In this document: piece by piece, positions 10,582 through 63,270 of the stretch
How the letters are laid out: each line of letters opens with the position of its first letter
Numbering within the stretch: the first letter of the stretch is position 1
NCBI GenBank assembly: GCA_023014365.1
Contig: JAEBUN010000021.1
Coordinates: forward strand, 62,001 to 126,000
Length of the DNA: 64,000 nt
From: Lepiota brunneoincarnata
Taxonomy: Eukaryota > Basidiomycota > Agaricomycetes > Agaricales > Agaricaceae
Reading direction: 5' to 3'
The notes under the pieces: model-generated
What the model was told of the DNA's origin: nothing
Databases searched by the model: none
What the model saw: only the letters and a program-made list of their open reading frames with translations
Program-made: the position numbers and the translations under genes

Positions 10582-13521
<2,940 letters not shown>

Positions 13522-14915
13522 ATGTCAAACGTACTTGGTATCGCAATCTTAGGCGCAGGCATCTTTGCAAAAGAAGGTTCGTATTAACCGCGCAGCCCAA
13601 TCTATCAGGAATTCGAGCGTTCCCAGCTGCAAAACCCTGTCTGATGAAAACTCACACACACAGCTCATTTACCTGCCCTTGCGGCCCTCGGGGGCTCAGC
13701 ACCACCACTTAAGGCCGTATATTCGCGTTCCGAAAAGAGTGCCCAGGAACTCGCCCAAGCAGCAACAGCGATCTTGAACCTGCCCGGCCCGGTTTCGGTC
13801 TATCATGACGGAGACGACTCTACAAACCTTGACGCATTACTCGCGAGATCTGATATCATGGCAGTTTTCATAGTCTTGCCCATCACACTCCAGCCTTCTA
13901 TCGTCTCCAAGGCCCTGGCAGCAGGGAAACACGTACTTAGCGAGAAGCCAGTTGCTCCGGATGTACAAGTTGGGCTGAAATTGATCTCTGACTTCAATAC
14001 GAAATTCAAGGACAAGGGTTTGATTTGGAGAGTTGCGGAGAACTATGAGGCAGAACCTGGCTTCCGAGCTGCTGGAGCTGCAATTCGCGCTGGCAAAATA
14101 GGGGAGGTTCAGTCCTTCAAGATCGCCGACGTGAATTATATCGACAAGAACTCAAAGTGGTATAAGACTCCATGGCGCACTGTCCCTGACGTAAGTGATT
14201 ATTCCGTGAACCCGATACAATCCTATGTTCTCATGATTCCGACCTCCTCGTGTGCAGTATCAAGGTGGATTCCTGGTAGGTTCCGTTAGTTACGCCACTC
14301 TATTCGCCAAATAATTCTCATTTCGCAGCTTGACGGCGGAGTGGTATGTGTCCACGAAACGTTTCCACTGGCTGATTTTTTCAATTTATTCCTAACTTAC
14401 AGCACACTGCCGCCGCACTCAAAGTAATGCTCCCCCACCCACCCACGCACCTCTCAGCACTCGCCTCCCTCAATAAGGATTACCTAGCACCCCATGATAC
14501 TATCCACGCTATCGTCAAAGCAGGCCCCAAGATTCACGGCATAACAGAGCTGACTTTCGCATTACCAACCCAATCCCGTCCAGCAGGAGACAAATTCGTC
14601 ATTATGGGTTCGAGTGGTTGGTTATCTGTGAATCAGGTCTCCAAGCCCGGGACAGATGCCACTGTCTTTCGTGTAACGATTCGCTCGGTTGTCAAGTTGG
14701 AGGATGGGGCAGAAGAGGAAAAGGAAGAAGTCATTGAGGAACCCGTAATCGGTGTCCAGGCCGAGATCGCCAGTTTCTTTTCCGCTATCAATGGTCAGGA
14801 TGATGGTCAAAATCTTGGAGATCCTCTTTCCGCGCTTGGAAATGTCGCTTTCATCCAAGCTTGCCTGAACAGCGGAGGGAGCGTAGTTGATTTAGAGCAG
14901 CTCATGAAAGGGTGA
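13522..14915 (+). CDS. Gfo/Idh/MocA-family NAD(P)-dependent oxidoreductase
   Basis: Dehydrogenase of the glucose-fructose oxidoreductase/inositol dehydrogenase family, acting on a sugar or polyol not predictable from sequence. Five exons (13522-13576, 13664-14190, 14258-14275, 14329-14343, 14403-14915) give exactly 375 codons plus stop. The Rossmann fold starts at residue 6 with IAILGAGIFAKEAHLPAL. IMAVFIVLPITLQPSIVSKA and the conserved LSEKPVA (catalytic-type Lys in EKP) follow. The third and fourth exons are only 18 and 15 nt (YQGGFL and LDGGV) and lead into HTAAALKVM, the GGVH segment of the family. All splice sites are GT-AG and phases agree. Its neighbour, head to head, is the GH1 beta-glucosidase, which fits a role in sugar use. 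Confidence 0.9.
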
Positions 14916-18446: not shown

Positions 18447-19706
18447 ATGTCCTCTGATATCAAACCCGATAACTCTATACACCCCTCAGTCATCGATAAG
18501 CTCGATCCTGAATATGTTGCATTCCACAATGCTAATCTCTTGGACATAATCCCACCCGAGCTCCTTCCTTGGGATCCGAGCTTGCGTTTGGGCCCCACGG
18601 TTCCTGGAACCTCGGAACCATTGGAGATCGGCAATACCGAGGACTACAGTCTGTCCAAAACAAATGTCCGTGTCTTCACACCGAAGGGAGTGCAGCCAGC
18701 CGAGGGATGGCCGGTCCTTGTTTGGTTTCATGGCGGTCAGTTTAAACCTAATATCTCCACCAACAACTTTCTCACATCAAATTCCAGGTGGATGGACACT
18801 AGGAAACATCAACTCGGATACATCTTTTATTACCCGCGTGGCTACTAGTTTGTATCACATCATAACATCCTTGACTCAAATTCTTATTCTCGATGTAGCT
18901 GCTAGCTGTGTCGTGGTATCAGTTGACTACCGACTCGCACCGGAAAATCCGTACCCGGCTGCAGTAGAAGATGCAGTGGAGGCTCTGGAATGGGTAATCA
19001 AGGATGGACCGAGTAAGATCTGTGTCAATCCCGCTCGTGTTGCCGTTGGTGGTTCGTCAAGGTTAGTCCAATGAATCGAGCTTGGGCGTAACATCAACCT
19101 CACATAGCAATACAGCGGCGGCAACCTTGCAGCAGTTCTGGCTCTGAAAGCCGTGGAGAAAGATATTCCTCTGATTTTCCAATTGCTTATCGTTCCAGTG
19201 ACGAATAACACGGGCTCAGTCAGTGACCTCTGGGCAGAGAACCAACACACACCGTGGTTGACACCTGTTCGAATGCTTTGGTTCAAGAGAAACTACCTTC
19301 CAAACGAGGCAGACTGGACCAAGTGGGATGCTTCCCCAGCCTTTGCACCTGCAGAACTTGTACGCAAAGTACCGAAGGCGTGGATTGCTGTTTGTGAGAT
19401 GGATATCTTGAGAGACGAGGGCATTCAATATGGTGAGAAATTGAGGAAAGAAGGTATCGAAGTCGAAGTCGAACTCTATCCGGGTGCGCCACACCCTACC
19501 ATGGCTATGGATGGTATGTTCCGAATATTTTCCTCCAATAACGCGAAATGACTCCTACCTGCTTTTGTTCGATTGTTTACAGGGTGAGTAAGATATAATG
19601 ATATATTGACTTTACTTACTCTTTCCCCAGTGTACTACGTGTCGGGAGGAAGCTTGTATCTGACGCAGGGGCAGCACTAGCACAGGCTTTCGCAGCCACA
19701 TCGTAG
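18447..19706 (+). CDS. HSL-type alpha/beta-hydrolase (abhydrolase_3) esterase, copy 1
   Basis: Predicted carboxylesterase/lipase-like enzyme of 328 residues without signal peptide. Exons 18447-18735, 18788-18847, 18899-19061, 19116-19513, a one-nucleotide exon at 19583, and 19631-19706 (289/60/163/398/1/76 nt). Intron 1 splits the oxyanion motif [25 protein letters not shown] follows. Intron 3 splits the nucleophile elbow GGSSSGGNLA (GxSxG; the family usually has GDSAG). Catalytic Asp is in [10 protein letters not shown] and catalytic His in PGAPHP. The frame shared by all copies at the C-terminus ([20 protein letters not shown]) is reached only through the single G exon; if the second intron pair is not spliced that way the protein ends within intron 4. 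Ordinary codon structure, all donors GT. Confidence 0.88.
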
Positions 19707-21142: not shown

Positions 21143-22377
21143 ATGGCCTCTGATATCAAATGCGACAACTCTATTCACCCCTCAGTTGTCGATAAGCTTG
21201 ATCCAGAATATATCGCCTTTCACAACACTCATTTCTTGAACTTCGTCCCACCCTCGCTCCTTCCCTGGGATCCGAGCTACCGTTTGGCCCCCCCACCCCC
21301 CGGGTCCTCAGAACCGTTGGAAATCGGCAATACCGAGGATTACAGTCTGTGTCTTCACACCAAAAGGAGTCCAGCCAGCAGAGGGATGGCCAGCCCTTGT
21401 TTATCTCCATGGCGGTCAGTTTAGGCCTAACATTCCGCTCAACTACTTGTTCACATCTAATTCCAGGTGGGTGGACACGGGGGGACTTCAACTCGGAGGC
21501 GCCGTTCATTACCCACCTGGTTACCGGTTAGTACCATACCATAACATCCTTCACCCCTATTTACCTTCCATTTAGCCGCTAGCTGTGTTGTGGTCTCTGT
21601 TGACTATCGACTTGCACCAGAAAACCCGTACCCGGCTGCAGTAGAAGATGCAGTGGAGGCGCTGGAATGGGTAGTCAATGATGGGCCGAGCCAGCTCTGT
21701 GTCAATCCTGCTCGTATTGCCGTCGGCAGTTTGTCAAGGCCAGTCCAAAGCGTCCAGCTAGGGACTCCGTACACCTTATATAGTATTACAGCGGCGGTAA
21801 TCTTGCAGCAGTTCTGGCCCTGAAGGCTGCGGAAAAAAATATTCCCCTGATTTTCCAGATGCTTGTTGTTCCAGCGACGAACAATACAGCCTCGGTCAAT
21901 GACCTCGGGGCAGAAACCCAGCACGCACCGTTCCCGACTCCTGCCCAAACACTTTGGTTCAGGCGCAACTACCTCCCGAATGAAGAAGACTGGACAAAGT
22001 GGGATGCCTCGCTGGCTTTTGCACCTGCAGAACTCGCACACAAAGTCCCGAAGGCGTGGATTGCCGTTTGTGAGATAGATGTCTTGAGAGACGATGGTAT
22101 TCAGTACGGTGAGAAGTTGAGGAAAGAAGGTGTTGAAGTCGAAGTTGAACTCTATCGGTGTACGACGCACCTTGCCGCTATTCTGGACGGTATGTTTCAG
22201 ACATTTTCACTTGACATCACCAATTGACCCTCTCCGGCTTTCGTCGGTATGCAGGGTGAGTAAGATAGAGTGATTTCTTGTCTTTACTGACTCTTCAGCA
22301 GTGCCTTAACTGCCGGAAAGAAGCTTGTATCCGATGCAGGTGCTGCGCTTGCGCGGGCCTTTGCAGCCACATCGTAA
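21143..22377 (+). pseudogene. Esterase copy 2, frameshifted
   Basis: Same six-exon layout as copy 1 (exons 21143-21414, 21467-21526, 21576-21738, 21792-22189, 22255, 22302-22377), but exon 1 is 272 instead of 289 nt. Seventeen bases that code for the SKTKVR part are missing after EDYSL, with a GT at each side of the gap, so the frame is lost before the oxyanion motif. The donor of intron 3 is also GC (GCCAGT) instead of GT. All downstream exons remain open, with SLSSGGNLA, the Asp motif [10 protein letters not shown] and the C-terminal block intact, so the lesion is recent. It could still yield a truncated peptide of about 94 residues. Confidence 0.85.
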
Positions 22378-23820: not shown

Positions 23821-25073
23821 ATGACCTCTGATATCAAATATGACAACTCTATTCACCCCTCAGTCATCGATAAGCTCGATCCAGAATATGTCGCTTTTCA
23901 CAATGTTCATTACCTGAACTTTGTCCCACCCTCGCTCCTTCCCTGGGATCCGAAATACCGTTTGGCCCCTCCACCACCTGGGTCCTCGGAACCGTTGGAA
24001 ATCGGCAATACCGAAGATTACAGTCTGTCGAAAACGAAAGTTCGTGTCTTCACACCGAAAGGAGTCCAGCCAGCAGAGGGATGGCCAGTCCTTGTTTGGT
24101 TCCACGGTGGTCAGTTTGGGCCTAATATTCCGCTCAACTATTTGCTCACATCTAATTCCAGGTGGATGGACACTGGGGAACGTCAGCTCGCAGATGTCGT
24201 TCATTACCCGCACGGTTACTAGTTAGTGCCACACCATAACATCCTTCACCCGCTACTTACCTTCTGTTTAGCTGCTAGCTGTGTTGTGGTCTCTGTTGAC
24301 TACCGACTTGCACCAGAAAACCCATACCCGGCTGCAGTCGAAGATGCGGTGGAAGCGCTGGAATGGGTGATCAGCGAAGGCCCGAACAAGATCTCTGTAA
24401 ATCCAGCTCGTATCGCCGTTGGTGGTGCGTCAAGGTTAGTCCAATGCATCCAGCTAGGGACGCAACAAAACTTACATAGTACTAAAGCGGCGGTAACCTT
24501 GCAGCAGTTCTGGCTCTGAAGGCCGTGGAAAAAAATATAAACCTGATTCTCCAGATGCTTATTGTTCCAGCGACAAACAATACAGCCTCGGTCGATGACC
24601 TCTGGGCAGAAACCCAGCACGCACCATTCCTGACCCCTGATCTAGCGCTTTGGTTCAGGCGCAACTACCTCCCGAATGAAGAAGACTGGACAAAGTGGGA
24701 TGCCTCGCCGGCCTTTGCGCCTGCAGAGCTTGTGCGCAAAGTACCGAAGGCGTGGATTGCTGTTTGTGAGATGGATATCTTGAGAGATGATGGTATTCAG
24801 TACGGTGAGAAGTTGAGGAAAGAAGGTGTTGAGGTCGAGGTCGAACTCTATCGGGGTGCGACACACCTTACTCTGGGTCTGGACGGTATGCTTCATATAT
24901 TTTTACCTGATACTACCGACTAACCTTTGCTGTCTTTCGTTTTCATATAGGGTGAGTGAGATAGCGTAATCCATTGCCTTTGCTGACTCTTCAGCAGTGT
25001 CACAACTACCGGGAAGAAGCTTGTATCCGATGCAGGTGCTGCGCTTGTGCAGGCATTCACCGCTACATCGTAA
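23821..25073 (+). CDS. HSL-type alpha/beta-hydrolase esterase, copy 3
   Basis: Intact paralogue of copy 1, 328 residues. Exons 23821-24109, 24162-24221, 24272-24434, 24488-24885, the single-base exon 24951, and 24998-25073. Oxyanion motif HGGGW across intron 1, GASSGGNLA elbow across intron 3, Asp in [10 protein letters not shown], His in RGATH. C-terminus after the one-base exon reads [16 protein letters not shown]. The last intron ends in the tandem acceptor CAGCAG, so isoforms with or without one extra codon are possible. This copy is the closest template for copies 2, 5 and 6 in the words of exon 4 ([20 protein letters not shown]). Confidence 0.88.
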
Positions 25074-26200: not shown

Positions 26201-27456
26201 ATGACCTCTGATATCAAATTTGACAACTCTATTCACCCTTCCGTCATTGATAAGCTCGACCCAGAATATATCGCCTTCCACAATGCTCATTTCTTAAACG
26301 TCGTCCCACCCGAGCTCCTTCCTTGGGATCCGAACTACCGTTTGGCCCCCCCCCTCCCCGGGTCCTCAGAACCGTTGGAAATCGGCGATACCGAGGACTA
26401 TAGTCTGTCAAAAACGAAAGTTCGTGTCTTCACACCGAAAGGAGTGCAGCCAGCAGAGGGATGGCCGGTCTTTGTTTGGCTCCACAGTGGTTAGTCTGTG
26501 TTTGCTGTGTCACTCGCTACTTGTTCACACCTAATTCCAGGTGGGTGGACACGGGGAGGCCTCAGCTCGGAAACGTCGTTCATAACCCGCATGGTTACCG
26601 GTCAGCGTACACCATAACCTCCCTCACCCACCCCCCACTTACCCTTCCATTAGCTGCTAATTGTGTTGTGGTGTCTGTTGACTACCGACTTGCACCAGAA
26701 AACCCGTACCCGGCTGCAGTGGAAGATGCAATGGAGGCACTCGAATGGGTGATCAGTGAAGGCCCGAACAAGATATCTGTTAATCCCGCTCGTATCGCCA
26801 TCGGTGGTATGTCAAGGTTGGTGTAGTGCGTTCAGCCAGGGACACCATCAACCTTACAAAGTATTCCAGCGGCGGCAATCTCGCTGCAGTTCTGGCCCTG
26901 AAGGCTGCGGAAAAAAGTATCCCTCTGGTTTTCCAGATGCTCGTCGTTCCAACGACGAACAATACAGCCTCAGTCGATGACCTCTGGGCAGAAACACAAC
27001 ACACACCGTTCCTGACCCCTGCTCGAGCGCTTTGGTTCAGGCGCAACTACCTCCCGAACGAGGAAGACTGGACCAAGTGGGATGCCTCGCCAGCCTTTGC
27101 GCCTGTAGAGCTTGTGCGCAAAGTGCCGAAGGCTTGGATCGCCGTTTGTGAGATGGATATCATGAGAGACGATGGTATTCAGTACAGCGAGAAGTTGAGG
27201 AAAGAAGGTGTTGAAGTCGAGATCGAACTCTATCGGGGTGCGATGCACCTTACCCTGGTTCTGGACGGTATGTTTTAAATAATTTTACTTGATGATACCC
27301 ACTGACCTTTGCTGGCTTCCGTTTGCATACAGGGTGAGTAAGATAGAGTAACATATTGTCTTTACTGACTCCTTCATTAGTGTCTTAACTGCCGGGAGGA
27401 AGCTTGTATCCGATGCAGGCGCTGCGCTTGCGCGAGCTTTTGCCGCCACGTCCTAA
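26201..27456 (+). CDS. HSL-type alpha/beta-hydrolase esterase, copy 4
   Basis: Open paralogue, 328 residues. Exons 26201-26489, 26541-26600, 26654-26816, 26870-27267, single-base exon 27333, and 27381-27456. The oxyanion motif reads HSGGW instead of HGGGW: the first Gly codon is AGT. The two following glycines, which normally form the oxyanion hole, are kept. GMSSGGNLA elbow, Asp in CEMDIMRDDG, His in RGAMH. The last intron has one acceptor (ATTAG), unlike the tandem CAGCAG of copies 2, 3, 5 and 6. In the last exon most differences from copy 2 are third-position changes in the frame that needs the one-base exon. Confidence 0.86.
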
Positions 27457-34573: not shown

Positions 34574-35172
34574 TCATGATTCATAATGTCCATCTCCAAC
34601 GACATCATCAGCGTAGTAAAGGGCGCGAATGACTAGCCCCCCTTTGACTTTAGTTTTGCTTCGGTCCGTTGGTCTTCGGCCCATTGGTCTTCGGCCCCTT
34701 GGTCTTCGGCCCCTTGCTGTTGGAGCAACCTCATCAGCACCCTTGTTCAATACGAGGACAGAGAAACTCACCCAGGGCGGTATGGCTTTCGGTTGCCTCC
34801 CCTGGACCTGGACCTGGACCAGGACCTAGACCTAGACCTTGAACCTCTGGACCTGGACCTGGACCTGCCACCCCTGGACCTGGACCTAGATCTGCCACCC
34901 CTTGAGCGAGACCTGGACCTGGACCTGGACCTGGACCGAGAACCCCTTGAGCGGGAGCGGCCCCTTCCACCACGGCCCCTTCCACGGCCTTTCCCACGAC
35001 CTCTGCCTCCTGGGTGGCGACGTTCGACGGCGTATGCCTCGGCGGCGCGCTCCTCAAGTCCTCGGGCCGCAAGTGCCGTGTCTGCGGTGCCCAACGGAGC
35101 CGGGGCAGAGACAACGGTGATGGCGAGAAGAGAGGTGACGACGATGAACGCGAGAGAAGAGAGGATCTGCAT
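34574..35172 (-). CDS. Secreted Arg/Ser-Gly/Arg repeat protein RSP1
   Basis: Two exons (35172-34772 and 34712-34574) give 179 residues. Signal peptide MQILSSLAFIVVTSLLAITV followed by VSA-APAP, a short pro-region (DTALAARGLEERAAEAYAVE) ending in a dibasic RR that looks like a Kex2-type site. A Gly/Arg part (GRGRGKGRGRGRGG) and a long Arg-Ser repeat come next, then GGNRKPYRPG. Exon 2 adds GRRPRGRRPMGRRPTDRSK and a short hydrophilic tail. The repeat is encoded by a GGTCCA/AGGTCC-type hexamer. TATAAAA lies 94 bp upstream of the ATG, in the same place in all four copies. Nuclear SR proteins also carry RS repeats, but here a signal peptide precedes it and there is no RRM. Function unknown. Confidence 0.72.
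34798..34945. repeat. Hexanucleotide minisatellite (CTGGAC) coding for the RS repeat
   Basis: Imperfect CTGGAC/CTAGAC units on the plus strand, interrupted by CCACCCCTTGAG words. On the minus strand it codes for Arg-Ser; the other frames read Gly-Pro or Val-Gln, and the plus strand reads Asp-Leu or Thr-Trp without stops. Equivalent tracts are at 46857-46960, 53513-53637 and 62326-62440 with different unit numbers. Confidence 0.85.
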
Positions 35173-36359: not shown

Positions 36360-38584
36360 TCATATATGGGGGAGGAATGATGTCCATTCAACCGCTGCAA
36401 AGACGTCTGGATGAGGGTCACGCAGGACGGAGAATGCAAGGACAAAGAGTATGAGGCGGGCGAAAATATAGAATAGGATACCAACGGAGGCAAGAATGGT
36501 GGAAATGTCAACCAGACGTTTCGAAAACCAGGTATGCTTGGACTTTTTGAGGATGAGGGCGAGATCGCGGAGGTAAACCATGAAAGGTACGGCTGTGATT
36601 AGGAGGGCCGAGGAACGCCATAGCCAGCGCTCGGTGGTGGATGGGAATGAGAATGACCATGGAAAGAGGTGAATCGCGCCAAACGAGACGGCGATGATTA
36701 GGGTAGGAAGATACTCTTTTCCTCGAGTGTTCTCGGCGTGGAACGTTGGCACCCGTAGTGAATCAGGGGGAAGCTGGGAACTGTACCGCATTTTTCCTAT
36801 TGGACGGAGGGTGGCTTGAGCAAGTCGATACGGAACAATAACACATCCATTTTTCTTTACATCCTCAAGCTTTTGAGTGATCCACCTTTTTTTTTCCTCA
36901 GGCATTTGCGGTGGTGACGGTAGTAGTGCCGTGTTGTCATCCAACTTGCTACCATCACCGCCAGTACCAGCCTCCACTTGACCATCATCAGCAGGTTCTA
37001 CTGGACTCTTGTCGACAGCTTGTTTCAGTTGAACACGAACGGCCACCAGGACATCCTTTGGCTTCTTCCACCAGAGCACATACGTGATGATGTTGAGGGT
37101 AGCAAAGCCGAGTGTGACAATTTCGAGCTCAGTTACTGGAAGACTGGACGCCCAACGGGTGATGCATTGAAGGATGAACCAGGACATCTGTAGGACAACG
37201 AAGAGCTTGGTCAGGGGATCGCCTTTTGCCCTGTCGTTGATTTCATGCTCTGAGATTCTCGGCATTTCAACAAAGCTTGTTTCCCGTTTACGCCGAATCC
37301 ACTCCTTGTCCCACTCCTGGTCCAGATCGTCTTCCGTCTTATGCTGCCATCTCTGTTTCTGCTTTTCCATCCACTCTTGTCTCTGACGACTCAACTCTTG
37401 TATCCCTTCTCGTAGTTGGTTTATATCCACCCACACCTCACGTGATCCCTCACGCTCCTGACACTGCGACTCATACTGCCCCCACTCCTGCGGTAGCTGC
37501 CGCTCCAGCTCCTGTGCCAGTTGCTCCCACTCCCGCCCCCGTTCACGCTGCCGCTCCCGCCACTCCTCCTCCTGCCACCACCACGCCCGCTCCCACTCCT
37601 GCCGCTCCTGCTGCTTCCACACCAACCCCCGCTCCCACTCCCGCCGCTCCAGCTGCTTCCGTTCCAACTCCCGCTTCCACTCCCGCTGCCCCCGCTCCTG
37701 CTCCCACTCCTGCTCCTTCAGCTGCAGGTCCCGCGCCAGTTGATCTAACTGTGCCAGCTGTTTCAACCGTTCCAACTGCTCTGAGCACTCCAGCTGGTCC
37801 CATGGCATTTGATCCCACAACTGCAACAGCATCTGCCTCCTATCCTCCTTCCAGCCCTTTCCCCCCCGCCACACCATCTTTAATGCCTGTGTCCTCTTTA
37901 GGTCCTCAAATGTCAGCACGCGCTTTGGCTTGCTGCCGTCGTAAAGCAAAAATCCACCCGCCTGCACAAAGAAGCCGTGTGTGAGCGTCCAGTCCTGGGA
38001 TGCTTGTTGTGGGTCTTGACCCCACCACTCCTCCCCCGCTCTGCGAACCTCCATCCAACAGTCCTTGAATGTCTGCCTCATTATGGGGACGGGCCGCCAC
38101 CATGGTACTGCCAGGGACATGTGAGTGTTACCCTCTTTTTTAAAATCATTGGACACTGACCTTGTCTCTCTTCCTCGCGTACTCTGTTCACCACCCTCAT
38201 AATCTGTCCAGCAGCAATCCTCTGCCGTAGTGCCCACACTGTTACAAACTCGGGAGCAATCATAGCAAATATCATGGTCATTGCCTTTCGCTTCAACCTC
38301 GTCGATGCAGGATCCCCTGGCCCTGGCAAATTCGGATGAACGGCAACCCATGTACATGCAAATATGGTTGCAATGCAACTCCACACTATTCCCTGCATAG
38401 TCCGACTGCGTGTTACACCAAGGCATTCTGGGAGTGCACGTCCGAACAAGACAAGTGGCACTCGATTACCGCTGGTATCAGTGACGGTCACGGGAGCACT
38501 CGAAGACAAGTTGAGGGCGGTGAGAATGAGGAGGACAACGAGCATTGGAATAATGGGTGGGTGGATAGGTTCTCCACTGAGCAC
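36360..38584 (-). CDS. Multi-spanning membrane protein with long Trp/Glu/Arg/Gln-rich coiled coil
   Basis: Belongs to a large, functionally unknown family of Agaricomycete membrane proteins. Exon 1 38584-38161 and exon 2 38107-36360 give 723 codons plus stop. The N-terminal part has a hydrophobic leader (IIPMLVVLLILTALNLSSS) and two membrane segments (MQGIVWSCIATIFACTWVAV, with HPNLPGP; then MTMIFAMIAPEFVTVWALRQ). After the intron comes the family block DWTLTHGFFVQAGGFLLYDG. A segment of about 160 residues follows, packed with Glu, Arg, Gln and Trp in heptad-like order (ERREWERGLVWKQQERQEWE). The conserved core is EINDRAKGDPLTKLFVVLQM, then ITRWASSLPVTELEIVTLGF-ATLNIITYVLWW. The C-terminus has three or four more membrane helices. 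A start 13 codons downstream is possible. Its 5' part was copied to 48.2 and 55.0 kb. Confidence 0.82.
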
Positions 38585-46753: not shown

Positions 46754-47217
46754 TTAGTTTCGTTTCGGCCCGTTGCTGTTGGAGCACCTCATCAGCACCT
46801 TGTTCAATACGAGACAGAGAAAACTTACCCAGGGCGTCCTGGCTTTCGGTTGCCTCCCCTTGACCTCGACCTTGACCTTGACCTCGACCTCGACCTGCCG
46901 CCCCTGGACCTGGATCTGGACCTAGACCTGTCGCCCCTCGAGCGAGACCTGGACCTGGACCGAGAACCCCTTGAGCGGGAGCGGCCCCTTCCGCGGCCCC
47001 TTCCACGGCCCCTTCCACGGCCCCTTCCACGGCCTCCTCCACGGCCTCTGCCTCCTGGGCCGCGACGTTCGATGGCGTATGCCTCGGCGGCGCGCTCCTC
47101 AATCCCTCGGGCCGCAACTGCCGTGTCCGCGGTGCCTACCGGAGCCGGGGCAGCGACAACGGTGATGGCGAGAAGAGAGGTGACAACAAGGAACGCAAGA
47201 GAAGAGAGGATCTGCAT
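46754..47217 (-). CDS. Secreted Arg/Ser-Gly/Arg repeat protein RSP2
   Basis: Paralogue of RSP1: leader MQILSSLAFLVVTSLLAITV, pro-region with GIEERAAEAYAIERR, then GRG repeats (longer than in RSP1) and RS repeats with ASP-containing SRSRGDRSRS breaks, ending GGNRKPGRPG. The donor after CCT-GG is GTAAGT. The acceptor used in RSP1 (GCAAG) has become GCAAC. The next usable acceptor, CAACAG, would give a very short tail (NGPKRN) with a TAA at 46754. The C-terminal GRRP part is thus lost in this copy. TTTTATA at 47311-47317 is 94 bp upstream of the ATG, as in the other copies. Confidence 0.68.
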
Positions 47218-50331: not shown

Positions 50332-51581
50332 ATGACCTCTGATATCAAATACGACAATTCTATTCACCCTTCCATCATTGATAAGCTCGACCCAGAATAT
50401 ATCACCTTCCACAACACTCATTTCTTAAACGTCGTCCCACTCGAGCACCTTCCTTGGGATCCAAACTACCGTTTGGACCCCCCGCGCATCGGGTCCTCAG
50501 AACCGTTGGGTATTGGCAATACCGAGGATTACAGTCTGTCGAAAACAAAAGTCCGTGTCTTCACACCGAAAGGAGCCCCATCCAGCGGGGGGATGGCCAG
50601 TCCTTGTTTGGTTCCATGGTGGTCAGTCTGTGCCTAATATGCCGCTCAACTGCTTGCTTGTTTACATCCAATTCCGGGTGGGTGGACACTGGGGGACTTC
50701 AGCGCTGAGACGTCGTTCATCACCCGCATGGTTACTGGTTAGTGCCATACCATAACTTCCTTCACCCGCTGCTTACCTTCCGTTTAGCTGCTAGCTGTGT
50801 TGTGGTCTCTGTCGACTACCGGCTTGCACCAGAAAACCCGTACCCGGCTGCAGTGGAAGACGCAGTGGAAGCGCTGGAATGGGTGATCAGCGAAGGCCCA
50901 AACAAGATATCTATTAATCCCGCTCATATTGCTGTCGGTGGTTTGTCAAGGTTATCCAAAAGCGTCCAGCTAGGGACTCCATAAACCTTATATAGTATTA
51001 CAGTGGCAGTAATCTCGCAGCAGTTCTGACTCTGAAGGCCATGGAAAAGAATATCCCCCTGATTTTCCAGATGCTTATTGTTCCAGCGACGAACAATACA
51101 GCCTCGGTCAATGACCTCTGGGCAGAAACCCAGCACGCTCCGTTCCTGACCCCTGCTCAAGTACTTTGGTTCAGGCGCAACTACCTCCCGAATGAAGAAG
51201 ACTGGACCAAGTGGGATGCCTCGCTGGCCTTTGCGCCTGCGGAGCTTGCACGCAAAGTACCAAAGGCGTGGATTGCCGTTTGTGAGATAGATGTCTTGAG
51301 AGAGGATGGTATTCAGTACGGTGAGAAGTTGAGAAAAGAAGGGGTTGAAGTCGAGGTCGAACTATATCGGGGTGCGATGCACCTTGCCATTGTTCTGGAC
51401 GGTGTGTTTCAGATATTTTTACTTGATATCACCAACTGACGCTTTCGTCTGCATACAGGGTGAGTAAGACAGAGTGATCTATTGTCTTTACTGACTCTTC
51501 AGCAGTGCCTTAACTGCCGGAAAAAAGCTTGTATCTGATGCAGGTGCTGCGCTTGCGCGGGCCTTTGCCGCCGCATCATAA
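50332..51581 (+). pseudogene. Esterase copy 5, frameshifted
   Basis: Exons 50332-50621 (290 nt, one base too many), 50678-50737, 50788-50950, 51004-51401, single base 51459, 51506-51581. The extra base lies in a C/G-rich stretch (GCCCCATCCAGCGGGGGG) and destroys the frame before HGGGW. The acceptor of intron 1 is GG instead of AG. Exon 3 keeps GGLS, and exon 4 has SGSNLA instead of SGGNLA. The downstream frame, Asp and His motifs and the one-base exon context are all kept. A product would end soon after residue 80, so this is a pseudogene although exon 4 still looks under little decay. Confidence 0.83.
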
Positions 51582-53334: not shown

Positions 53335-53538
53335 TCAGCGTAAAAGGCGCGAATGACTAGCCCCCTTTGTGACTTTAGTTTCGCTTCGGCCCGTTCTGCT
53401 TCGGCCCATTCTGCTTCGGCCCCTTGCTGGTAGAGCACCTCATCAGCACCTTTGTTCAATACGAGACAGAGCAAACTCACCCAGGGCGGTATGGCTTTCG
53501 GTTTCCTCCCCGGGACCTGGATCTGGACCAGGACCTAG

Positions 53539-53569
<31 letters not shown>

Positions 53570-53872
53570 ACCCCTGGACCTTGACCTTGACCTGGACCTG
53601 GACCTAGAGCCCCTTGAGCGAGACCTGGACCTGGACCGAGAACCCCTTGAGCGGGAGCGGCCCCTTCCACCACGGCCCCTTCCACGGCCTTTCCCACGGC
53701 CTCTGCCTCCTGGGCCGCGACTTTCGATGGCGTATGCCTCGGCGGCGCGCTCCTCAAGCCCTCGGGCCGCAAGTGCCGTGTCCGCGGTGTCCAACGGAGC
53801 CGGGGCAGAGACAACGGTGATGGCGAGAAGAGAGGTGACGACAATGAACGCAAGAGAAGAAAGGATCTGCAT
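53335..53872 (-). CDS. Secreted Arg/Ser-Gly/Arg repeat protein RSP3
   Basis: Paralogue of RSP1 with the same leader and pro-region (APLDTADTALAARGLEERAA, ending AIESR instead of VERR). The putative dibasic site is therefore changed to SR. GRG and RS repeats, then GGNRKPYRPG. Donor GTGAGT, acceptor GCAAG as in RSP1. Exon 2 reads GRSRMGRSRTGRSETKV and ends SHSRLLR at 53335, because two extra bases near 53370 shift the frame relative to RSP1. TTTTATA at 53966 is 94 bp upstream. Confidence 0.7.
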
Positions 53873-59096: not shown

Positions 59097-60349
59097 ATGA
59101 CCTCTGATATCAAGTACGACAATTCTATTCACCCCTCAGTCATCAATAAACTCGATTCAGAATACATTGCCTTTCACAACGCCCATTTCTTGAACTCCGT
59201 CCCACCCGAGCTCCTTCCTTGGGATCCGAAATACCGTTTGGCCCCCCCTCCTCCCGGGACTTCAGAACCCTTGGAAATCGGTAATACCGAGGATTACACC
59301 CTGTCCAAGGCGAAAGTCCGTGTCTTCACCCCGAAAGGAGTTCAACCAGCGGAGGGATGGCCAGTCCTTGTTTGGCTCCACGGTGGTCAGTTTGTTCCTA
59401 ATATTCCGCTCTACTGCTTGTTTACATCTAATTCTAGGTGGATGGACACTGGGGGACTTCAGCTCTGAGACGTCGTTCATCACCCGCATGGTTACTGGTT
59501 AGTGCCATACCATGACGTCCTTCACCCTCTGCTAACCTTCCATTTAGCTGCTAGTTGTGTTGTCGTCTCTGTTGACTACCGACTTGCACCAGAAAATCCG
59601 TACCCGGCTGCAGTAGAAGATGCAGTGGAAGCGCTGGAATGGGTGGTCAGTGAAGGTCCGAACAAGATAGCTGTCAATCCCGCTCGTATTGCCGTCGGTG
59701 GTGTGTCAAGGCTAGTCCAAAACGTCCAGCTAGGGGCACGATCGACCTAACATAGTATTACAGTGGCGGTAACCTTGCAGCCGTTCTGGCTCTGAAGGCC
59801 GTGGAAAAGAATATCCCCCTGATTTTCCAGATGCTTGTTGTTCCGGCGACGAACAATACAGCCTCGGTCGATGACCTCTGGGCAGAAACCCAGCACGCTC
59901 CGTTCCTGACCCCTGCTCAAATACTTTGGTTCAGGCGCAACTACCTCCCGAATGAGGAAGACTGGACCAAGTGGGATGCCTCGCCGGCCTTTGCGCTTGC
60001 AGAGCTTGTGCGCAAAGTACCAAAGGCGTGGATTGCCGTTTGTGAGATAGATGTCTTGAGAGACGATGGTATTGAGTATGGTGAGAAGTTGAGGAAAGAA
60101 GGGGTTGAAGTCGAGGTTGAACTCTATCGAGGTGCGATGCACCTTGCCATTGTTCTGGACGGTGTGTTTTGGATGTTTTTACTTGATATCACCAACTGAT
60201 CCTTTCTGGCTTTCGTCTGCATACAGGGTGAGTATGATAGAGTGATCTATTGTCTTTACTGACTCTTCAGCAGTGTCTTAACTGCCGGAAAGAAACTTGT
60301 GTCTGATGCAGGTGCTGCGCTTACGCGGGCTTTTGCCGCTGTACCGTAA
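59097..60349 (+). CDS. HSL-type alpha/beta-hydrolase esterase, copy 6
   Basis: Open paralogue of 328 residues outside the tandem array. Exons 59097-59385, 59438-59497, 59548-59710, 59764-60161, single base 60227, and 60274-60349. HGGGW oxyanion motif, GVSSGGNLA elbow, Asp in [10 protein letters not shown], His in RGAMH. The donor of intron 3 is GC (AAG-GCTAGT), an allowed but rare type, also seen in copy 2. The C-terminus reads [20 protein letters not shown]. Its promoter carries the 201-bp insertion just upstream, about 90 bp from the start codon, so expression may differ from the array copies. Confidence 0.83.
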
Positions 60350-62112: not shown

Positions 62113-62675
62113 TCATGATTCATAATGTCCATCTCCAACGACATCATCAGCGTAGTAAAGGGCGCGAATGACTAGCCCCCCTTTGACTTTAGTTTCGCTT
62201 CGGTCCGTTCGGCTTCGGCCCGTTGGTCTTCGGCCCCTTGCTGTTGGAGCAACCTCATCAGCACCCTTGTTCAATACGAGGACAGAGAAACTCACCCAGG
62301 GCGGTATGGCTTTCGGTTGCCTCCCCTGGACCTGGACCTCGACCAGGACCTAGACCTAGACCTTGAACCTCTGGACCTGGACCTAGATCTGCCACCCCTT
62401 GAGCGAGACCTGGACCTGGACCTGGACCTGGACCTGGACCGAGAACCCCTTGAGCGGGAGCGGCCCCTTCCACCACGGCCCCTTCCACGGCCTTTCCCAC
62501 GACCTCTGCCTCCTGGGTGGCGACGTTCGACGGCGTATGCCTCGGCGGCGCGCTCCTCAAGTCCTCGGGCCGCAAGTGCCGTGTCTGCGGTGCCCAACGG
62601 AGCCGGGGCAGAGACAACGGTGATGGCGAGAAGAGAGGTGACGACGAGGAATGCAAGAGAAGAGAAGATCTGCAT
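62113..62675 (-). CDS. Secreted Arg/Ser-Gly/Arg repeat protein RSP4
   Basis: Closest to RSP1. Leader MQIFSSLAFLVVTSLLAITV, pro-region with GLEERAAEAYAVERR, GRG repeats, RS repeats, GGNRKPYRPG, then GT-AG intron and exon 2 with GRRPTGRSRTDRSETKVKGG and the same tail as RSP1 (VIRALYYADDVVGDGHYES), TGA at 62113. One GRRP unit fewer than RSP1. An in-frame ATG 42 codons upstream exists, but the leader identifies 62675 as the start. TTTTATA at 62769 is 94 bp upstream. Confidence 0.72.
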
Positions 62676-63270
62676 GATGAATGCTAAGTTTGGCTTTAGA
62701 AGCTTTGGTACGATGAGAGAAGAAACTTTAGAGGTTTCTGGGTTCTTTCCTGGTGCTTGGAGGGTACGTTTTATACCTTCTGCAGGGGGTGAACAGGCCA
62801 CGCACTTTGCAAAATTTCAATATTGGTTTGGGGTGGAGAGCGGGGCCAAGCATGTTCAGGTACAGATGTCAGAAAGGGAGCTAGAAGATGAGACACCGCT
62901 AAAGACTATAACGGTATCAGGCGCACAGAGCTCTACCTCACGGGATCTCAGGAATCTGCGTGGTGGACGTACGAATGATTGAGTTGACAAAAGAGGGGAG
63001 TACCTATCTATGAACCTCTGATTCGGTAATTAAAAAGCCTCATTTTGGTCCTTCGCAAGACGTTGGTTGGCCTGCGTTGTGTTCCCGAGGGCTCGGATAT
63101 TGACCTCAGGAAATAAGACGCACAGTACAGCCTTGCACGGCCAACCATGTCGGGTGTAATACCTGAATGCCAAGTCGTCTTGATCAATTGTGTTTGGACG
63201 GAGGCAGCCAAAGATTGAGACATCGTGTCAGCCTCCATCAGTTGCAAAATGGCCAGCGGAGAACTCTAAT
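62676..63270. repeat. Copy of the RSP upstream block, truncated
   Basis: Matches 35173-35750 (TATTGGTTTGGGGTGGAG, AAGACTATAACGGTATCAGG, GGCCTGCGTTGTGTTCCCG, AAATGGCCAGCGGAGAACTC) and stops at about 63270, where unrelated AT-rich sequence begins. This is the right edge of the mosaic. Confidence 0.75.

Follow-up and report, generated by a model that had tools for sequence, protein, structure and literature searches.

A putative one-nucleotide exon in a cluster of putative esterase genes of a mushroom-forming fungus

Previously, single-nucleotide exons have been described in nuclear as well as mitochondrial genes. A nuclear exon of this kind was reported in 2026 for the CYP621A P450 genes of Fusarium, and its authors consider it the first for a fungal gene (PMC12940212). 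In Arabidopsis APC11, a changed exon base showed up in the cDNA (PMC4674806). Mitochondrial examples are found in rnl of Ophiostoma and Ceratocystis and in cox1 of placozoans (PMC12308204, PMC7813641). Among the matches listed from the open-access literature, there was no one-nucleotide exon in a basidiomycete nuclear gene; the shortest of the P450 microexons of Phanerochaete measures 6 bp (PMC1184071), and a 2026 review of non-canonical splicing (PMC13149111) gave no match to terms on one-nucleotide exons or fungi. Single-nucleotide exons are therefore already known, and the present case belongs to another gene family and another phylum than CYP621A. The original prediction had described such exons as very rarely reported, with a known plant case. 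The rarity is right, whereas the plant case does not stand alone, given the Fusarium nuclear exon (PMC12940212) and the mitochondrial ones (PMC12308204).

The present study concerns a single G between YAG and GTGAG that recurs in six gene copies of the window, i.e., the whole stretch of 64,000 nucleotides that was analysed, from a genome of 55.6 Mb. We hold with high confidence that this G is a one-nucleotide exon in a putative Abhydrolase_3 esterase family of mushroom-forming fungi. As in CYP621A, a fungal nuclear gene would use a G in AG-G-GT as the middle base of a conserved Gly codon, between a phase-1 and a phase-2 intron; in both cases the exon was noticed through a failure of the frame, and the deposited CYP621A transcripts are wrong there in all but one instance (PMC12940212). 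In contrast to our case, CYP621A is another gene family, from Ascomycota, with 20 Fusarium orthologues and RNA reads (PMC12940212), whereas here a six-copy cluster of a basidiomycete is accompanied by indirect signs over many species. The APC11 exon is constitutive, required for the frame and placed between two introns, as ours would be; it differs in its base (A), its 422-nt stretch, its plant host and its proof by reporter constructs (PMC4674806). With VPS55 and APC11 of land plants our case shares a GTRAGT donor after the exon, and it would share wide conservation and absence from reference annotations, although the VPS55 exon is a plant one and alternatively used in some lineages (PMC8831610). 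In the mitochondrial cases, too, one base lies between introns inserted at adjacent sites (shown for rnl), but these are group I or II introns, which involve no spliceosome (PMC12308204, PMC7813641).

The cluster consists of six alpha/beta-hydrolase copies, all on the + strand, four of them at 18-28 kb of the window and two near 51 and 60 kb (Table 1). Copy 6, the one tested, passes the Pfam model Abhydrolase_3 (PF07859) with 218 bits against a cut-off of 25, and the cluster is one of putative esterases of the Abhydrolase_3 family. Among the matches listed, its proteins are nearest to those of Macrolepiota (69%), Leucoagaricus (65%) and Agaricus (66% identity), which we take to be Agaricaceae. 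In the four intact copies (1, 3, 4, and 6) the exons measure 289, 60, 163, 398, 1, and 76 nt, and with the extra G each copy encodes 328 aa with a single terminal stop. This bears out the claim that the last exon continues in the conserved frame only if one base is added. The same prediction spoke of six esterase genes, which holds for the four intact copies and not for copies 2 and 5, both damaged in exon 1. In copy 2, exon 1 (21143-21414) has 272 nt instead of 289 and is out of frame, and the allele on contig C12 has the same shortened stretch; in copy 5, exon 1 (50332-50621) has 290 nt instead of 289 and is likewise out of frame, the C12 allele being without the extra base. Contig C12 carries six near-identical counterparts of the window copies, and we take it as the other haplotype. 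Its stretches C12:601942-602301 and C12:612294-612650, which correspond to copies 6 and 5, lie on the opposite strand with their order reversed; the haplotypes seem to differ by an inversion at these two copies.

Table 1. Gene copies of the cluster and their candidate one-nucleotide exons (window coordinates)
Feature	Position	Strand	Details
Copy 1, putative esterase, ATG to stop	18447..19706	+	exons 18447-18735, 18788-18847, 18899-19061, 19116-19513, 19583, 19631-19706
Copy 1, intron 4	19514..19582	+	69 nt, GTATGT..CAG
Copy 1, candidate one-nucleotide exon G	19583	+	middle base of Gly codon
Copy 1, intron 5	19584..19630	+	47 nt, GTGAGT..CAG
Copy 1, last exon	19631..19706	+	76 nt, LVSDAGAAL frame
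Copy 2, frame broken	21143..22377	+	exon 1 17 nt short
Copy 2, candidate one-nucleotide exon G	22255	+	introns 22190-22254, 22256-22301
Copy 3, putative esterase	23821..25073	+	intact with the one-nucleotide exon model
Copy 3, candidate one-nucleotide exon G	24951	+	introns 24886-24950, 24952-24997; rival +4 donor is GC
Copy 4, putative esterase	26201..27456	+	intact with the one-nucleotide exon model
Copy 4, candidate one-nucleotide exon G	27333	+	introns 27268-27332, 27334-27380
Copy 5	50332..51581	+	exon 1 one nt too long in the window haplotype; intron 4 of 57 nt
Copy 5, candidate one-nucleotide exon G	51459	+	introns 51402-51458, 51460-51505
Copy 6, putative esterase	59097..60349	+	intact with the one-nucleotide exon model
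Copy 6, candidate one-nucleotide exon G	60227	+	introns 60162-60226, 60228-60273

Exon 4 ends with GAT-G or GAC-G before a GT donor in 6/6 copies, as originally described, and the last exon has 76 nt, stop included, in every copy. Intron 4 (57-69 nt) and intron 5 (46-47 nt) come close in size to the remaining introns of these genes (49-56 nt); the sizes first given, 65-69 and 46-47 nt, hold except for intron 4 of copy 5, which has 57 nt. The donor consensus is GTRNGT, and both introns have such donors (GTATGC in copy 3) together with YAG acceptors. In intron 5, a branch-like YTNAY motif precedes the exon by 12-13 nt, compared with 13-14 nt in introns 1-3; in intron 4 the distance is 20-28 nt in copies 2-6, and copy 1 is without a YTNAY match there. 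Since each intron, with this one exception, possesses its own donor, acceptor and branch-like site, the two are separately definable and removable.

In the proposed mechanism, the phase-1 intron (57-69 nt) and the phase-2 intron (46-47 nt) would split one Gly codon into G, G, and T, and their removal would probably be stepwise. With intron 5 excised first, the last exon would start with the G; with intron 4 excised first, exon 4 would end with it, directly upstream of the GTGAGT donor. Whichever step comes first, the remaining intron would keep an intact splice site beside the G. Either order would add one base and bring the C-terminal helix, which follows a PH motif by a few residues, back into frame. 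From its alignment with bacterial esterases, we take this PH motif to be the likely catalytic-His region. Fungal splicing proceeds largely by intron definition. Two short introns could therefore be removed successively, though a one-base exon would hardly be recognisable itself. What the data show directly is the sequence, the frame, the conservation and the length of homologous proteins; the splicing, the succession of its steps and a constitutive use of the G are inferred.

Skipping of the G causes a frameshift in all four intact copies. A stop then follows one codon past the junction codon in copies 2, 4, 5, and 6, intact copies 4 and 6 included, which agrees with the immediate stop predicted for these four; it comes after 15 codons in copy 1 and after 32 in copy 3. 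It may be argued that the actual mRNA lacks the G or keeps intron 4, with shortened proteins or inactive genes as the outcome. Exon 1 is broken in 2/6 copies, and 47/145 genome-derived homologue models, though only predictions, stop or lose the helix at this place. In contrast, the last exon varies as a coding sequence does in the frame that needs the G, 20 of its 38 variable sites being third positions (8, 10, and 20 at codon positions 1, 2, and 3 in 12 alleles, over 78 positions of which two lie past the stop), and both its sequence and its length are kept by homologues. Skipping or retention thus has a very slim chance of being the true state. Between copies 2 and 4, said beforehand to differ in the last exon almost only at third positions, 9/76 bases differ, 7 of them third positions. 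Regulation through skipping of the one-nucleotide exon is possible, with no supporting sign in this analysis.

Whether one ordinary intron could give the same frame was addressed by a scan for GT/GC-AG introns of at least 35 nt, with donors from -90 to +44 nt of the exon 4 end and LVSDAG in frame. Within this range, no right-frame single intron with the same donor letters was common to the four intact copies, and the one-nucleotide exon is the only canonical GT/GC-AG solution tested that they share. The remaining single-intron solutions were rejected, as they remove stretches of exon 4 or the last exon which are present in homologues, or (in copy 6 only) add several residues. The original prediction had overlooked the nearest rival, a donor 4 nt downstream (GATGGTAT, then GT). 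A single intron of 100-113 nt from this +4 donor would add four bases to exon 4, restoring the frame with one extra residue (Ile/Val), and with the usual acceptor it does so in 6/6 copies if GC is allowed in copy 3. As a donor it is poor: 0/3 variable positions of GTRNGT are matched in 6/6 copies, in copy 3 it would have to be GC followed by TTCA, and it gives no account of the conserved YAG-G-GTGAGT. Together with the protein lengths given below, these features make the +4 donor highly unlikely.

YAG-G-GTGAGT stands between exon 4 and the last exon in 12/12 alleles, i.e., the six window copies and their six C12 counterparts. Its core, YAGGGTGAG, occurs 6 times in the window against 1.08 expected, always on the + strand and always at the six sites first indicated (Table 1), and 0/100 shuffles reach 6. 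For the looser YAGNGTRNGT there are 9 sites in the window where 5.8 are expected, and 10 shuffles reach 9; the motif alone is therefore not rare, and it is position and conservation that count. What is unusual is the place of the motif, the two introns of near-normal size on either side and its retention across the alleles. Over the 12 alleles, 9/10 columns of the motif are invariant, compared with 16/56 in the interior of intron 4, 20/37 in the interior of intron 5, 4/6 in the intron 4 donor, 2/3 in the last acceptor, 265/398 in exon 4, and 41/80 in the last exon. Indels of 4 and 8 nt (intron 4) and of 1 nt in the two introns leave the motif intact in these alleles. The six copies are paralogues and therefore amount to one evolutionary observation, not six. 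The best more distant Abhydrolase_3 match in the same genome (C36, L013), considered as an internal control, is without the motif, has a different C-terminus and was set aside.

The same mRNA would result if both stretches formed one long intron whose boundary is non-canonical (GT..CA or TA/TG..AG), because the letter preceding the last exon is also a G. The inserted G thus repeats the acceptor G, and cDNA alone cannot distinguish such an intron from a one-nucleotide exon. The ends of the long intron would, however, vary among the copies: its 3′ end would read CA in five copies and TA in copy 4, or its shifted 5′ end TA in copies 1-4 but TG in copies 5 and 6. The YAG-G-GTGAGT in its middle stays fixed nevertheless. 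We therefore regard a non-canonical single intron as very improbable, even more so than the +4 donor.

Spliceosomal twin introns (stwintrons), in which one intron lies inside a splice element of the other, bring together two short fungal introns that are spliced consecutively. They are established in fungi, one of them in a putative lipase gene (PMC5639578), and the present genes resemble them in having two short adjacent introns that would be removed in sequence. In a stwintron, unlike here, one partner splits a splice site of its neighbour, and no base from between the two is retained (PMC5639578). In our genes each intron leaves the donor, branch site and acceptor of its neighbour unbroken, and removal must leave one base; a [D1,2] twin requires TGAGT right after the internal AG, where these copies have GGTGAGT. 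Since no splice element of either intron is interrupted by its neighbour, the definition of a stwintron (PMC5639578) excludes this reading, whose probability is practically negligible.

Protein homologues from independent sources offer a measure of the length at the junction. From the best 120 of 7868, 7438, and 7999 matches, 161 distinct proteins were obtained, 145 from named genomes (presumably Agaricomycetes, judged from the names) and 16 found only on jgi/lgn contigs of less than 5 kb. Gaps at the junctions were scored against copy 6 in 142 genome-derived models, those from the first two of three protein searches, and in 15 short-contig proteins. Among the matches listed, junctions 1, 2, and 3 show no gap in 136/142, 137/142, and 131/142 genome-derived models, respectively, compared with only 51/142 for the one-nucleotide-exon junction. 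Control points within exons, at residues 140, 260, and 285, are gap-free in 141/142, 140/142, and 133/142 models. A further control in a variable loop, residue 215, is gap-free in 75/111 genome-derived and 5/9 short-contig proteins; gaps are thus not confined to the one-nucleotide-exon junction. The short-contig proteins are gap-free at that junction in 15/15 cases, as against 51/142 of the genome-derived models (Fisher p = 8e-7).

The 145 genome-derived models divide at the junction into 47 with the exact length, 26 with one residue more, 18 with another indel, 47 with a stop or a lost helix, and 7 outside the anchor. Together with the short-contig P0141, the last group makes up the eight proteins that the anchor left unclassified; on visual inspection, P0018, P0151, and P0141 have the exact length, and P0137 is one residue longer. 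The 26 models with exactly one extra residue are what the +4 donor would produce. Their extra residues are T (7), D (5), A (4), E (3), N (2), P (2), G (2), and I (1), and an RNN codon would encode it in 24/26 (p = 2e-5 against a crude baseline of 32/61), as would be expected of predictors that chose a donor 4 nt into GTRNGT. Among the truncated or read-through models, many start with DGK, DGE, DGT, DGM, or DGA; read-through of GGTAAG, GGTGAG, GGTACG, GGTATG, or GGTGCG would give these starts, and they speak for a donor at this codon position in those species. In 6/10 models with a long insert, a G precedes the VL-type motif; the residue before it (L, V, V, L, I, or S) is in each case encodable by a codon ending in YA, to which we attach little weight. 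Extra residue, read-through, and truncation look like workarounds for a missing base, and these protein models suggest that two introns may lie at this junction in other species as well. The 47 exact models may include species with an ordinary single intron there. For two Agaricus bisporus strains the database models differ at the junction, one being exact and the other without the helix (P0005 versus P0003).

At the junction, the predicted length is found in all 16 short-contig homologues (the 15 scored for gaps and P0158), whose contigs range from 1160 to 4689 nt, and the extra residue of the +4 donor is absent from every one of them. The contigs of P0149, P0077, and P0154 have 1160, 1203, and 1225 nt, with ∼155-192 nt beside the coding sequence. 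This is too little for five introns of ∼50 nt, so these sequences are spliced transcripts or intronless genes, and either way they set the true protein length. At least some of the short contigs are probably cDNA, as their size indicates, less strongly for the longer ones; P0142, P0028, P0158, and P0112 lie on contigs of 2.8-4.7 kb, a size that does not rule out introns. In P0149 the Gly at the junction is replaced by Lys, with the length unchanged.

A search of genome and viral contigs for related DNA returned no fungal record, and gave 80 prokaryotic and 5 viral-contig stretches. The 80 prokaryotic relatives, some of them archaeal, served as intron-free markers of length. The junction is reached by 55 of them, 43 without a gap there and 12 with one, and the length given by the one-nucleotide exon scores better than one residue more in 49, worse in 4, and equally in 2. 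The 49 argue against the +4 donor, and the 4 that fit better with an extra residue favor it. Est8 (4ypv), a homologue with a solved structure, aligns at the junction without a gap. The proposal of a one-nucleotide exon is thus supported, as an inference, by its being the sole shared canonical solution and by the agreement in length with homologues and with most prokaryotic relatives.

The age of the exon is a bolder claim, drawn from the way annotation errors recur across many genera. The wrong models in many mushrooms suggest that the one-nucleotide exon is old and often missed. Agaricomycetes have a history of hundreds of millions of years. We consider it somewhat more probable than an even chance that the exon is ancestral to most of them, has been kept in many dozens of species over such a span, and is mispredicted in about two thirds of the models listed (91/142 genome-derived models, among the matches listed, are not gap-free at the junction). 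If so, no other nuclear single-nucleotide exon known outside plants would be as widely conserved. Together with CYP621A, it would also suggest that AG-G-GT in a Gly codon is a recurrent, convergent route to such exons. Species with both, one or none of the two introns would then form a natural series for the study of gain and loss. The pattern further points to a systematic annotation error by which the C-terminus of a widespread putative esterase family is cut or altered. Junctions at which gene models fail and transcript-derived proteins do not may offer a cheap route to further exons of this kind.

Besides the esterase copies, the window contains four similar small proteins on the - strand (34768-35172, 46825-47217, 53477-53872, and 62292-62801), interspersed with the cluster. 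They have a hydrophobic start and long RGR/RSRSRG repeats, and the two of the four that were tested gave no Pfam family above the cut-off. An open frame of 688 aa at 36360-38426 (-) is rich in Q, E, R, and W and has no Pfam match. A piece of a family 1 glycosyl hydrolase lies at 12447-13091 (-), and a piece of a GFO/IDH/MocA oxidoreductase at 13774-14289 (+).
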